From Clostridia bacterium (GTDB lineage: Bacteria; Bacillota; Clostridia; Oscillospirales; CAG-272): a DNA stretch of 64,000 nt. The stretch is from contig JAFYBN010000070.1 in assembly GCA_017540175.1 (NCBI GenBank), forward strand, positions 34,931 through 98,930, in the 5' to 3' direction. The translations under genes were made by a program, and so were the position numbers. This document shows positions 35,809 through 40,093 of this stretch, in pieces; the first letter of the stretch is position 1; each line of letters begins with the position of its first letter. The notes below the pieces were generated by a model. That model had not been told where the DNA came from and did not search any database. It worked only from the letters and a program-made list of their open reading frames with translations.

Positions 35809-36477
35809 TTACGGTGTGATCCACAGCGTGAGCGGCGCGGTGTCGATATACTTCCCGAGGTCGTCGACCGCGACGCGGTTTTCCTCGATCACGGTCAGGC
35901 GGACGCAGGCGGTTCCCTTCTTGCCGAGCTTCGGATCCTCCGCGGTGATCGCGAAGGACAGGGAAGGGCTCTTCAGCGCGACGGAATAACGGTCCTCCCA
36001 ATAGGGGAGAAGCTCGTTCACAACGGTGAATTCGGTTTCGGGCGTGACGGCGAGGGAGCGGATCTCGGCGCAGCCGTTGCGGTTCCCGCGCTGGATCAGA
36101 TCAAACGTCCCCGCGACCGCGAACGATACCGCGGCGCCGGAGTCGCGTTCGTGCACGCGCACGAACTCTTCCGCGTCGACGCCGCCGATCTTCGAGAAGG
36201 CTTTCTCTTCCCGCTGGGACCAGTCCTCGAAGGCGCGGTCCCCGATGAGGGACGCCTCGATTTTGTTCATGTACTTCGTGAAGCTGCGCCAGCGGACGCC
36301 GCCCTCGCGGCAGTCCGCGGCGATTTTCGCGATCTCCTCGTCGGAGAGCGCGGAAATCGCGTCGAGCACCTCGTTCCGTTCCAGATAGAACGCGCCGAGG
36401 GTGCGGAAGCGGTCGTAATTCGCACTGATCGTGCGCTTGATGGAGACGATGTCGCGGACGCGGCGTTTGATTGACAT
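35809..36477 (-). CDS. Conserved-looking protein of unknown function, 222 aa
   Basis: I do not recognise this protein. It begins with a basic helix-rich part (MSIKRRVRDIVSIKRTISAN) and a short SDEEIAKIAADCREGG stretch. The central and C-terminal parts are beta-rich with regular hydrophobic alternation (AAVSFAVAGTFDLIQ, FTVVNELLPYWEDRYSVAL), compatible with a small sandwich or lipocalin-like fold. There is no signal peptide or membrane segment, so it should be cytoplasmic. Codon use matches its neighbours. It has a strong promoter (36516-36544) and a GAGG ribosome site, and is divergent from the T-box locus, which makes a functional link possible but unsupported. Confidence 0.65.
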   Translation of the reverse strand: MSIKRRVRDIVSIKRTISANYDRFRTLGAFYLERNEVLDAISALSDEEIAKIAADCREGGVRWRSFTKYMNKIEASLIGDRAFEDWSQREEKAFSKIGGVDAEEFVRVHERDSGAAVSFAVAGTFDLIQRGNRNGCAEIRSLAVTPETEFTVVNELLPYWEDRYSVALKSPSLSFAITAEDPKLGKKGTACVRLTVIEENRVAVDDLGKYIDTAPLTLWITP

Positions 36478-36515
36478 AAGAAGAACCTCGTGTTTTACAA
36501 AGATTTATCAAACTC

Positions 36516-36544
36516 ATTATAGCACGTCCGCGCCGTCTTGTCAA
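36516..36544 (-). promoter_or_regulatory. Consensus promoter of the 222-aa protein gene
   Basis: On the complement, -35 TTGACA (36539-36544), 17-base spacer, -10 TATAAT (36516-36521): a perfect sigma-A promoter. Confidence 0.9.
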
Positions 36545-36714: not shown

Positions 36715-36743
36715 TTGACAGAGCGCGGGGTATGTGCTATAAT
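36715..36743 (+). promoter_or_regulatory. Consensus promoter of the T-box transcript
   Basis: -35 TTGACA (36715-36720), 17-base spacer, -10 TATAAT (36738-36743). A very strong promoter, as expected for a gene held back by a leader attenuator. Confidence 0.92.
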
Positions 36744-36749
36744 CACATC

Positions 36750-37024
36750 AATATCGGAAACGCGTTGAAGGGGAACAGGACTTCCGGAATCGTGCAGAGA
36801 GCCGCCGCCGTGAAAACGGACTGGTGCGAGGCGGTCGAGGCAGGGAGTACGGCTCACCCCCGAGCAGCCGTCTGAAATCCTTTCGGAGAGTAAGCGCGGA
36901 CGGGACTTCCCGTTACAGAAGAAGGACATCATGCGTGTCCGAAAAGAGGGCGGTTTTCCGCCGAATCAGAGTGGTACCACGGAGAGAGGTCTTCGTCTCG
37001 TTGTTGTGAGGCGGAGCTTTTTTT
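36750..37024 (+). promoter_or_regulatory. T-box leader (tRNA-sensing riboswitch)
   Basis: The roughly 275-base leader has the canonical parts. Stem I has its base helix ACTTCCG (36780-36786) against CGGA-G-AGT (36884-36891), with GCAGAGAGCC and GGTGCGAGG inside. Hairpins follow (GGACA/TGTCC and GGCGG/CCGCC). The T-box AGAGTGGTACCACGG is at 36968-36982, and the terminator CTTCGTCTC/GAGGCGGAG (36991-37016) is followed by eight T. The T-box base after TGG is T, so it should pair with a tRNA whose discriminator base is A. After TGAA (36873-36876) the next triplet is ATC (36877-36879), my candidate specifier (Ile); this reading is tentative. Uncharged tRNA should favour readthrough into the fused gene at 37052. 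Confidence 0.88.
36991..37024 (+). terminator. T-box regulated terminator
   Basis: Nine-pair stem CTTCGTCTC/GAGGCGGAG with an 8-base loop, then C and a run of T ending at 37024. It competes with the antiterminator formed by the T-box sequence. Confidence 0.85.
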
Positions 37025-37051
37025 ATCCCCCATATAAGATCGGAGGCAATT

Positions 37052-39583
37052 ATGAAAATCTCGTTTTCCACGCTCGGCTGTCCGGATTTTTCCTGGTCGG
37101 ACATTTATTCCATGGCGAAGGACTGCGGTTTCCACGGCATCGAAATGCGCGGACTGGGCGGCAACATCTTTTCGGTGCACGCCGCACCGTTCAAGCCCGA
37201 GAATCTCGCGGCGACCAGAGCGCAGCTGAAGCGGCTCAAGCTCGAGATCTGCTGCCTGTCGTCCGGCTGCGCCCTGCGCTTCACGGAGAAGCGGGACGAG
37301 ACGGTCGCGGAGCTCAAGGAATATATCGCGCTCGCCGAAGCGCTCGGCACGCCGTACATCCGCATCCTCGGCGACCTCACCGCGGAGCCGACGACCGATT
37401 TTGACGACGAGGCGGTCATCGAACCTCTGAGGAAACTCGCGCCGATTGCGGAGGCGGCGGGCGTCACCCTCCTCGTCGAGACGAACGGCGTGTATTCGAA
37501 CACTGCCCGCCTCGCGGACGTTCTCGCGCAGATCGGAAGCGATTCCGTCGCCGCGCTGTGGGATCTCAACCATCCCTACCGCTTCGCGGGCGAATCCCCC
37601 GCGGAGACGATCAAGAACCTCGGCGCGTACGTCAAGCACGTCCACATCAAGGACTCCGTCATGCAGGACGGCAAGGTCGCGTACCGCATCATCGGCGAGG
37701 GCGACCTTCCCATCGACGATTTCATGAGCGCGCTGCGCTCCGTGAACTACGAGGGCTACGTCTCCCTCGAGTGGCTGAAGCAGTACATGCCCGACCTCTC
37801 CGACGCTGGCATCGTCTTCCCGCACTACGCGCACTTCATGCAGAGCTACATCGGCGGCAGCGACCACACGGGCCGGCTGCAGCGGAACAACCGCGGCGAC
37901 GGCTGGTATGTCTGGGAAAAGAACAAGCTCATCGACCTCACCTTCCCGCAGGTGCTCGACCGCATGTGCGAGGAATTCCCGGATCAGTGGGCGTTCCGCT
38001 ACACCACCTGCGATTACAGCCGCACCTATCCCGAATTCCGCGACGACGTGGATACCTTCGCCCGCGCCCTCATCTCCCTCGGCGTGAAGCAGGGCGACCA
38101 TGTGGCGATCTGGGCGACCAACGTCCCCGCGTGGTATCTGACCTTCTGGGCGACCGTCAAGATCGGTGCGGTGCTCGTCACCGTCAACACGGGGTACAAG
38201 ATCCACGAGGCGGAATATCTGCTCCGCCAGTCCGACACCCACACCCTCGTCATGATCGACGGCTACAAGGATTCGGACTATGTCTCGATCATGAAGACGC
38301 TCGTGCCCGAGCTCGAGAGCACCCCCGCGGGCAAGCCCATCCACTCCCGCCGCCTGCCGTTTCTGCGCAACATCATCACCGTGGACTCGAAGCAGCCCGG
38401 CTGCCTGACCTGGGACGAGGCGCTCTCCTATGCCGAGCGCACGCCGGTGGACGCTGTGTACCGCCGCGCCGCCATGATCAACAAGGACGACGTGTGCAAC
38501 ATGCAGTACACGAGCGGCACTACCGGTTTCCCGAAGGGCGTCATGCTCACCCACAGCAACGTCGTGAACAACGGCAAGGCGATCGGCGACTGCATGGATC
38601 TTTCCACCGCGGACCGCATGATGATCCAGGTCCCGATGTTCCACTGCTTCGGAATGGTGCTCGCGATGACCGCATCCATGACCCACGGCACGACCATGAG
38701 CCCGATCCCGGCGTTCTCCCCGCGCGTCAGCCTCGACTGCATCAACCGCGAGAAGATCACGGCGTTCCACGGCGTCCCGACCATGTTCATCGCCATGCTC
38801 GGCCACGCCGACTTCCCGAAGACCGATTTCTCCCACATGCGCACGGGCATCATGGCGGGCTCGCCGTGTCCGATCAAGGTGATGGAAGAGGTCGTGGAGA
38901 AGATGCACATGTCCGAGATCTGCATCACCTACGGTCAGACCGAGGCGTCCCCGGCGACCACGATGTCCAAGACCACGGACAGCATCGAGACCCGCGTGAA
39001 CACCGTCGGCGGCCCGATCTTCGGCGTGGAATGCAAGATCGTCGATCCCGAGACCGGCGAGGACTGCCCCGACAACGTGGACGGCGAATTCTGTGCGCGC
39101 GGCTACAACATCATGAAGGGCTACTACAAGATGCCCGAGGCGACCGCCGCCGTGATCGACAAGGACGGCTGGCTGCACTCCGGCGACCTGCTGCGGCGTC
39201 TCCCGGACGGAAACTACAAGGTCACGGGCCGCATCAAGGACATGATCATCCGCGGCGGCGAGAACATCTACCCGAAGGAGATCGAGGACTTCATCTACAC
39301 CTACCCGAAGGTCGAGGACGTGCAGGTCATCGGCGTGCCTGACAAGGCGTACGGCGAGGAGATCATGGCGTGCGTCATCAAAAAGCCCGGCGAGGACTGC
39401 ACCGCCGAGGAGATCCAGGACTACGTCCGCACGCATATGGCGAAGCATAAGGTGCCGCGGTACGTTGTATTCGTCGATTCCTTCCCGATGAACGCGGCGG
39501 GCAAGATCTTAAAGTACAAAATGCGCGAGGAAGCGAAGAATCTGCCCGAGTTCCGCGAAGCGGCGGGCATCGTGACGGCGTAA
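37052..39583 (+). CDS. Fusion protein: TIM-barrel sugar-phosphate isomerase/epimerase + acyl-CoA synthetase (AMP-binding)
   Basis: An 843-residue fusion. Residues 1-270 are a xylose-isomerase-like/AP-endonuclease-2 TIM barrel (ISFSTLGCPDFSWSDIYSMA; VTLLVETNGVYSNT; LWDLNHPYRF; VKHVHIKD with the usual metal-binding Glu, Asp and His). From about 285 it is a full acyl/aryl-CoA synthetase: P-loop YTSGTTGFPKG near 486-496, the A5-type motif TYGQTEASP near 632-640, GWLHSGDLL near 707-715, the hinge GRIKDMIIRGGENIYPKEIE near 727-746 and the C-terminal Lys in AAGKILK near 820. The ligase should activate a carboxylate with ATP and CoA; the barrel may isomerise a related sugar or hydroxy-acid. GGAGG precedes ATG 37052. 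The gene is governed by a T-box leader, so amino-acid starvation should raise it. The substrate is unknown. Confidence 0.88.
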   Translation: MKISFSTLGCPDFSWSDIYSMAKDCGFHGIEMRGLGGNIFSVHAAPFKPENLAATRAQLKRLKLEICCLSSGCALRFTEKRDETVAELKEYIALAEALGTPYIRILGDLTAEPTTDFDDEAVIEPLRKLAPIAEAAGVTLLVETNGVYSNTARLADVLAQIGSDSVAALWDLNHPYRFAGESPAETIKNLGAYVKHVHIKDSVMQDGKVAYRIIGEGDLPIDDFMSALRSVNYEGYVSLEWLKQYMPDLSDAGIVFPHYAHFMQSYIGGSDHTGRLQRNNRGDGWYVWEKNKLIDLTFPQVLDRMCEEFPDQWAFRYTTCDYSRTYPEFRDDVDTFARALISLGVKQGDHVAIWATNVPAWYLTFWATVKIGAVLVTVNTGYKIHEAEYLLRQSDTHTLVMIDGYKDSDYVSIMKTLVPELESTPAGKPIHSRRLPFLRNIITVDSKQPGCLTWDEALSYAERTPVDAVYRRAAMINKDDVCNMQYTSGTTGFPKGVMLTHSNVVNNGKAIGDCMDLSTADRMMIQVPMFHCFGMVLAMTASMTHGTTMSPIPAFSPRVSLDCINREKITAFHGVPTMFIAMLGHADFPKTDFSHMRTGIMAGSPCPIKVMEEVVEKMHMSEICITYGQTEASPATTMSKTTDSIETRVNTVGGPIFGVECKIVDPETGEDCPDNVDGEFCARGYNIMKGYYKMPEATAAVIDKDGWLHSGDLLRRLPDGNYKVTGRIKDMIIRGGENIYPKEIEDFIYTYPKVEDVQVIGVPDKAYGEEIMACVIKKPGEDCTAEEIQDYVRTHMAKHKVPRYVVFVDSFPMNAAGKILKYKMREEAKNLPEFREAAGIVTA

Positions 39584-39604
39584 GCGCCGAAGCAAAAAGA
39601 CGGA

Positions 39605-39650
39605 AAAACCGTGCGGCTGGTCCGGAATCAGCCGCACGGTTTATTTTCGT
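39605..39650. terminator. Bidirectional terminator between the fused ligase and the ACT protein
   Basis: Perfect 12-base stem ACCGTGCGGCTG (39608-39619)/CAGCCGCACGGT (39629-39640), with AAAAA on the left and TTATTTT on the right, so it can work for both convergent genes. Confidence 0.9.
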
Positions 39651-39664
39651 TTTAAGCGTAAGAC

Positions 39665-40093
39665 TCAGAATTTCAGGTCCGCGTCGGTGAGGAGAACGAA
39701 GCCTTTTTCCGTGAGCAGGGCTTCGGTCTTCACGTTGTCCTCCACGCGGAGGACGACGTAGGCGCTGGACGCGGGAGAAGCGACGAAGGCGTACAGGTAT
39801 TCCACCGAGATATCCGCTTCGGTCAGCACGCGCAAGAGTTCGGTGAGACCGCCCTTTTCGTCGGGGATCTGCACGCTGACCACGTCGGTGACGCTCACGA
39901 TGCGTCCCTCTACGGAAAGCGCCATGGCGGCGGCGCGGGGATCGTTGACGATCAGTCGAAGAATGCCGTAGTTCTGGGTATCGGCGATGGAAAAGGCGCG
40001 GATGTTGATGCCCGCGGTGCTCAGAATTTTTGTGATCTCATAAAGCGATCCGTTCTTGTTTTCGGCAAAAACAGATAATTGCTTGACAGACAT
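39665..40093 (-). CDS. Tandem ACT-domain amino-acid-binding protein
   Basis: A 142-residue protein made of two ACT domains (about 1-70 and 71-142). The first has the typical QLSVFAENKNGSLYEITKIL and INIRAFSIADT, the second GGLTELLRVLTEADISVEYL. ACT pairs bind small ligands, usually amino acids. Stand-alone two-ACT proteins of this type are often encoded next to phenylacetate-CoA-ligase-like genes in anaerobes, and here the neighbour is an acyl-CoA ligase. The T-box on that neighbour also senses an amino acid, so a shared role in amino-acid-derived acyl-CoA metabolism is plausible. ATG 40093 has GGAGG eight bases upstream; promoter at 40138-40166. Convergent with the ligase gene. Confidence 0.88.
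   Translation of the reverse strand: MSVKQLSVFAENKNGSLYEITKILSTAGINIRAFSIADTQNYGILRLIVNDPRAAAMALSVEGRIVSVTDVVSVQIPDEKGGLTELLRVLTEADISVEYLYAFVASPASSAYVVLRVEDNVKTEALLTEKGFVLLTDADLKF

Follow-up and report, generated by a model that had tools for sequence, protein, structure and literature searches.

The present analysis concerns a 64,000-nucleotide stretch of the genome of a Clostridia bacterium (contig JAFYBN010000070.1; hereafter the window), in which a T-box leader precedes a gene that joins a triose-phosphate isomerase (TIM) barrel to an AMP-forming acyl-CoA ligase. The specifier of this leader reads as a leucine codon, and two further ligases of the same genome follow T-boxes that read as isoleucine and valine. 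The best explanation that we can offer, and one that we consider probable, is that the leader and the fusion gene provide a tRNA-gated activation of isovalerate for leucine synthesis by reductive carboxylation.

The leader begins behind a sigma-70-type promoter (TTGACA-17-TATAAT, with TG before the second hexamer; 36715-36743) that agrees with the consensus at 12 of 12 positions. It matches the T-box family RF00230 at 36756-37003 over the complete model (positions 1-219; cmscan, 77.6 bits, E 3.4e-17). These features, like those given below unless noted, lie on the forward strand. A complete T-box leader with a consensus promoter had been described in an earlier reading of the sequence alone (the original prediction), and it is present. 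Checked against Rfam, as that prediction had proposed, the leader matched at full length, though below the RF00230 gathering score of 93, which is why a scan of the whole window at gathering thresholds returned zero matches. This cut-off does not exclude real T-boxes in the window genome, since the leaders of ileS (41.1 bits), pheS (43.8 bits) and thrS (34.1 bits), genes named by eye from their translations, all scored lower than the leader in the window. Eight of the nine T-box matches in the genome, including these three and the Trp leaders, fell below 93, and the sole match above it (105.3 bits) lies upstream of a valS-containing region. T-box surveys at Rfam gathering thresholds will undercount in this GC-rich genome.

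Like other members of RF00230, the leader has a stem I with specifier, a stem II, a UGGNACC antiterminator and a competing terminator. The fold of the whole leader was uninformative (z -0.74), and the antiterminator and terminator segments were therefore folded alone. The antiterminator (36969-36999) took the textbook shape of a stem, a 7-nucleotide bulge (UGGUACC, 36972-36978) and a second stem, with a stability like that of shuffled sequences (z 0.39). The intrinsic terminator stem (36991-37016, z -3.3) overlaps its 3' strand. The two fold as alternatives, with 36991-36999 common to both, and a GGAGG ribosome-binding site follows at 37042-37046. The leader differs from the known family in its target, a TIM-barrel/acyl-CoA-ligase fusion, and in its stem I, where AGGA and ACG are aligned beside the specifier in place of the AGUA/GAA letters usual for the S-turn. 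The S-turn is frequent in T-boxes and is not universal. We kept the assignment on the remaining features; by alignment and predicted fold, the leader is a real T-box with a competing antiterminator and terminator.

The Rfam alignment column of the specifier holds CUC, a leucine codon, at 36853-36855. In the same column, other leaders of this genome have GUC (valS), AUC (ileS), UUC (pheS) and UGG (two Trp leaders), so that five of six in-genome controls show the codon of their own amino acid. The original prediction had taken the triplet ATC after TGAA as an isoleucyl specifier; this candidate was rejected, as the covariance model aligned TGAAATC (36873-36879) to stem II. Its further remark that the TGGT of the T-box fits a tRNA with discriminator base A holds for leucine as well, for tRNA-Leu has A at this position and the UGGU bulge fits it. 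The sensed amino acid, as far as the aligned column tells, is leucine and not isoleucine.

The gene behind the leader (37052-39583) is a single open reading frame (ORF) of 843 residues, as had been predicted, and we propose that it encodes an isovalerate-CoA ligase. Its product consists of a xylose-isomerase-like TIM barrel (PF01261; residues 22-242, 37115-37777; E 8e-33, domain score 114.6 over a cut-off of 31.1), an AMP-binding domain (PF00501; residues 303-692, 37958-39127; E 2.4e-93) and an AMP-binding C-terminal domain (PF13193; residues 743-818, 39278-39505; E 1.2e-18). A hairpin with a 16-pair stem and a T-rich tail (39606-39642) lies behind the gene, and the transcription unit looks monocistronic. 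Across 117 distinct proteins the ligase half is strongly conserved and the TIM barrel less so. The phosphate-binding loop YTSGTTGFPKG (residues 486-496) and the C-terminal lysine region NAAGKI (814-819) are each present in at least 97% of these proteins; together with PF00501 and PF13193, these motifs place the ligase among the AMP-forming acyl-CoA synthetases of the ANL superfamily. Among NCBI families, PRK12583 fatty acid CoA ligase (NF009233) comes closest, at 679.6 bits under a cut-off of 832, so that by curated score the ligase is close to this subfamily and not a member of it. Four residues of the barrel, which we take to be of the metal-ligand type found in PF01261 barrels, are mostly kept among the 117 proteins (E143 in 115, D171 in 110, H198 in 111 and E240 in 111). 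Sequence searches for the identity of the barrel gave weak PDB matches only (Art22 at 4.8e-6, MJ1311 and AsbF), none of which yielded a function. The barrel may act on the substrate of the ligase itself or may sense a ligand.

The isomerase/acyl-CoA-ligase fusion is widespread in Clostridia. We surveyed 147 genomes drawn from the genus, family and order of the window genome, scoring at most six first-look candidates in each, so negatives are possibly overcounted. The fusion was matched at 1e-60 in 104 of them, in two cases by the TIM part alone, and 73 were full-length fusions in a single frame (hand count). For the comparisons below, a genome was called positive when the ligase region matched at E 1e-60. 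The 102 positives include contig-edge fragments, among them one of the TIM end only (G011; G and L numbers denote genomes and loci), as well as ligase-only matches; G075 and G142, matched by the TIM part alone, were placed with the negatives. In G124, G069, G119, G041, G062 and G137 the ligase and the TIM part are encoded by two neighboring genes, ligase first and TIM second. A scan of named genomes gave more than 590 fusion loci; among the 80 listed, samples came from goat, sheep, water buffalo, chicken, horse and soil, and Anaerobacterium chartisolvens and Candidatus Formimonas warabiya are among the fusion matches listed. The gene of A. chartisolvens (L070), a cultured carrier, showed no strict T-box core upstream.

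Leaders of these relatives repeat the leucine signal. Upstream of the fusions we collected 119 distinct leaders, 11 of them from clusters that begin with a LeuA-like gene. A strict T-box core was found in 67 of the 119, against 0, 0 and 1 in control stretches; counted within 650 nucleotides upstream of the fusion, it was present in 67 of the 108 non-cluster leaders. A looser core pattern was discarded as unspecific: against 74 matches in the 119 leaders, the two sets of 119 control stretches gave 16 and 17, and the reverse complements, since the pattern is nearly palindromic, gave 77 of 119. Automated, pairing-based reading gave a specifier in 67 leaders, which was leucine in 58 (CTC in 53, CTG in 5), and the same procedure gave no leucine read in 119 reverse complements, 119 in-gene stretches and 119 shuffles. 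Such synonymous switching between CTC and CTG argues for selection on the amino acid. Before the LeuA-like genes of the clusters, the core was found in 8 of 11 leaders, and the specifier was CTC in all seven that could be read.

The same genome contains two further T-box genes (L002/L120 and L009/L121), each encoding a helix-turn-helix (HTH) domain, a cupin domain and an acyl-CoA ligase. Their specifiers are AUC (isoleucine, from the Rfam column and from pairing) and GUA (valine, from pairing only, in a weak leader of 31.5 bits). A cupin-ligase match at 1e-100, partly to the ligase half only, was obtained in 112 of the 147 genomes, often twice per genome. These genes gave 50 distinct leaders, in 45 of which a specifier was read: 19 GTA, 16 ATC, 1 GTC and 9 other triplets. 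The two amino acids follow protein identity, in that ATC was read in 12 of 13 cases below 64% identity to the valine gene and GTA prevails above. The ATC exceptions above this value are L169 and L173, which are isoleucine-type paralogues at 65% identity, and L161, an apparent misread. Where leaders in four clusters (L164, L168, L169 and L174) were aligned with Rfam, all 10 of 10 had the expected specifier (3 Leu, 4 Ile and 3 Val).

2-Methylbutyrate and isobutyrate are the carbon skeletons of isoleucine and valine. For both cupin ligases of the window genome the best family was MbcS (NF047394), named for a methylbutyryl-CoA synthetase from Staphylococcus aureus, at 455.3 and 435.3 bits. They may thus work like MbcS, from which they differ by scores far below the cut-off of 850, and hence by non-membership on the curated score, and by the fusion to HTH and cupin domains. 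According to PMC10026030, the preferred acids of MbcS are 2-methylbutyrate and isobutyrate, and its activity on isovalerate is poor. This preference agrees with the Ile and Val specifiers and with the leucine ligase belonging to another subfamily, its nearest family being PRK12583 instead.

An early survey of neighboring genes at 80 loci, made with a crude ORF caller that missed the fusion in 7 of them, found the fusion mostly monocistronic, and no partner emerged. Only when gene clusters of more distant relatives were inspected did partners come to light. We fetched 16 such regions, a chosen set picked because search tables suggested linkage. In varying subsets they hold the isoleucine-type and valine-type cupin ligases, a CbiA/ParA-type P-loop ATPase, vorB, vorA and vorC of 2-oxoisovalerate:ferredoxin oxidoreductase (VOR), a branched-chain aminotransferase (BCAT; ilvE), a LeuA-like gene and the fusion. 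VorB scored 539.9 bits in cluster L164 (NF005507, cut-off 399), and the aminotransferase there matched TIGR01123 at 409.9 bits (cut-off 250). The positions of four kinds of gene in these regions may be recorded here. The small P-loop ATPase lies between the cupin ligases and VOR (L164:8359-9030, with equivalents in other clusters). A protein with ACT domains and a metallo-beta-lactamase-fold domain is encoded directly after a cupin ligase (L170:9677-11110). A nitrilase-type carbon-nitrogen hydrolase occurs within some clusters (L175:7862-8647, scanned; look-alikes at L174:1810-2613 and L177:145-933), and an amidohydrolase (PF04909) follows the fusion directly in some (L164:16903-17709, scanned; look-alikes at L169:13868-14668 and L170:6091-6891).

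The window genome is 93.5% complete. It gave no match for ilvC or ilvD, a 35-bit match only for leuB, and, for the leuC-type model, a match under the cut-off (374.8 of 385.7) in a 734-residue frame that we took for an aconitase. It does hold the ligase together with VOR (VorB at 548.5 bits, over the NF005507 cut-off) and a branched-chain-type aminotransferase of 356 residues, the parts that are clustered in relatives. Across the survey, VorB was found in 85 of 102 positive versus 11 of 45 negative genomes (p 9e-12). The reverse was seen for ilvC (28 of 102 versus 31 of 45, p 3.5e-6), leuC (23 of 102 versus 33 of 45, p 9e-9) and leuB (23 of 102 versus 37 of 45, p 1.5e-11), and these p values are optimistic since the genomes are related. 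The contrasts for VorB, ilvC and leuB held separately in the family without the genus of the window genome and in the rest of the order (weakest p 0.009). When the 73 full-length single-ORF fusions alone were counted, ilvC was present in 17 of 73 versus 42 of 74 genomes (p 4.7e-5). VorB exceeded its cut-off in 64 of the 71 positive genomes that have neither ilvC nor ilvD.

These observations are consistent with the following scheme. Uncharged tRNA-Leu would bind the CUC specifier and the UGGU bulge and stabilize the antiterminator, so that transcription enters the fusion gene. The ligase would then, most likely, convert isovalerate to isovaleryl-CoA at the expense of ATP; VOR, running in the reductive, CO2-fixing direction, would yield 4-methyl-2-oxopentanoate; and BCAT would convert this to leucine. 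The HTH-cupin ligases under Ile and Val T-boxes would serve the same route for 2-methylbutyrate and isobutyrate. We infer the substrates of the ligases, the direction of VOR and the binding of tRNA. The original prediction had suggested a starvation-responsive CoA ligation for branched-chain acids, and it gains support from the ligases under Leu, Ile and Val T-boxes, from their clustering with VOR and BCAT, and from the lack of over-cut-off matches to ilvC, ilvD, leuB and leuC.

The strongest rival to this scheme is that the three ligases supply branched acyl-CoA primers for membrane fatty acids, with the T-boxes responding because a shortage of branched-chain amino acids (BCAA) is also a shortage of primers. 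In its favor, the family that the two cupin ligases match best, MbcS, works in lipid synthesis in S. aureus (PMC10026030). We consider this reading unlikely: one ligase for each of leucine, isoleucine and valine fits the supply of amino acids better than a pooled need for lipids, the ligases cluster with VOR and an aminotransferase, and their presence is associated with the absence of ilvC, leuB and leuC.

The LeuA-like gene raises another alternative. In 11 of the 16 chosen regions it immediately precedes the fusion; the other five regions stop short of the fusion. Together with the mostly kept metal-site residues of the barrel and the lack of over-cut-off leuB and leuC in the window genome, this position could mean a different route to leucine, in which TIM barrel, LeuA-like protein and ligase act on 2-oxoisovalerate in place of LeuCD and LeuB. 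The LeuA-like protein of L164 has HMGL-like and LeuA_dimer domains and reached 278.9 bits, under the 532 of the family. All 11 such proteins (L162-L172) lack TLRDGEQ, HxHND and GERxGN, presumably the catalytic motifs of LeuA, which the LeuA of the window genome has, and a condensation is therefore unlikely. Moreover, the start of a LeuA-like gene was not found in the 110 loci L010-L119, which include the genus of the window genome and were inspected for 1.5-5 kb upstream where the contig allows. The different route thus seems improbable to us. The C-terminal part that aligns with the leucine-binding dimer domain is retained, and the protein is possibly a leucine-sensing, non-catalytic partner and a candidate feedback subunit of the isovalerate ligase.

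Fermentation of BCAA, in which VOR would oxidize 2-oxo acids and the ligases would act on the resulting acids, draws on the reversibility of VOR and BCAT and on their fermentative roles elsewhere. It is very unlikely, since T-boxes activate genes when an amino acid is short, which is opposite to catabolism, and AMP-forming ligases consume ATP. T-boxes often control synthetases (as passages of PMC2494555 also state), and a relic of a leucyl-tRNA synthetase leader before an unrelated gene is hardly credible and was rejected on the recurrent Leu specifiers before the fusion and their absence from the controls. Among the signs against it, the original prediction had listed another specifier, one befitting a synthetase relic; the specifier does differ, but in many genomes a leucine specifier persists upstream of this one non-synthetase gene or of its partner in the operon.

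Several results weigh against tRNA-gated isovalerate activation. Of the 108 non-cluster fusion leaders, 41 are without a strict T-box core within 650 nucleotides, in a few cases owing to a contig end. Nine of the 67 reads of fusion leaders gave a triplet other than leucine; a leucine candidate can be seen by eye in seven of them, L107 and L116 being the other two. The nine deviating cupin-ligase reads all show GTA or ATC by eye. The Rfam column of the thrS control, a weak leader, holds CCG, one base off ACC. The TIM half has no role in the scheme as stated. In the window genome the parts of the pathway are scattered, and VOR is without a T-box among the nine found. This genome also keeps LeuA and citramalate synthase without the known downstream enzymes: at L127:8789-11949 (G000 contig 42), an intact LeuA (655.1 bits, cut-off 532) adjoins citramalate synthase (553.7 bits, cut-off 450). 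Finally, 28 of the 102 positive genomes retain ilvC, and in 17 of the 102 VorB is not over its cut-off.

The chemistry of the proposed pathway has a long history. Passages of PMC7356843 describe rumen anaerobes that convert isovalerate to leucine, 2-methylbutyrate to isoleucine and isobutyrate to valine, and date the incorporation of branched acids into BCAA to work of the 1960s and early 1970s; for the carboxylation of isovalerate to leucine by ruminococci they cite Allison, Bryant and Doetsch 1962 and Allison 1966. The chemistry is also known from methanogens (PMC10658910). Our proposal shares with the ruminococcal pathway its substrates, its products and its hosts, anaerobes of rumen and gut; in the literature searched, we found no mention of the proposed genes, of their regulation by T-boxes or of the domain fusions. 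VOR is likewise a known enzyme, and here its clustering with T-box ligases suggests the carboxylating direction. The main text of a T-box survey (PMC2494555) contains neither "CoA" nor "oxidoreductase". No paper naming these genes was found in the open-licence literature, where absence is a weak sign. As far as this literature was searched, the T-box and the pathway are of known kinds, and what is new is the set of target genes, the occurrence of three ligases each tied to its own amino acid, the fusions and the LeuA-derived partner.

A broader proposal, which we regard as an even call, is that a tRNA-gated regulon for the salvage of branched acids replaces BCAA synthesis from pyruvate in many gut and rumen Clostridia. 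Three T-boxes would each switch one dedicated ligase that carries its own extra module: HTH and cupin domains for valine and isoleucine, and the TIM barrel, joined in some lineages by a catalytically dead LeuA that keeps its leucine-binding domain, for leucine. This LeuA would act as a feedback subunit, halting the activation of isovalerate when leucine is plentiful. Such a regulon would account, at the level of genes, for the classical need of fiber-degrading rumen bacteria for isoacids. The proposed ligases, VOR and BCAT are in any event candidate genes for the classical isoacid route, and as each ligase can be assigned its amino acid from the specifier of its T-box, the substrates are directly testable. 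Genomes that lack ilvC and are called BCAA auxotrophs may be prototrophic when given branched acids, which bears on models of cross-feeding in gut and rumen and on isoacid feed additives.

On the other side of the fusion gene, a convergent gene (39665-40093, reverse strand) encodes a protein with a pair of ACT domains (PF19571, E 7.6e-26), as had been predicted. The original prediction had also expected a conserved linkage of fusion and ACT gene. Of 110 fusion loci, four had an ACT match in the vicinity, one of the four weak and 4 kb away, with many of the 110 reaching only 1.5 kb behind the fusion gene; on this count we rejected the ACT gene as a conserved partner of the pathway and regard it as a neighbor only. 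Upstream of the leader, a divergent gene of 222 residues (35809-36544, reverse strand) has no Pfam or NCBIfam match and possesses a promoter of its own at 36544-36516, which agrees with the consensus at 12 of 12 positions.

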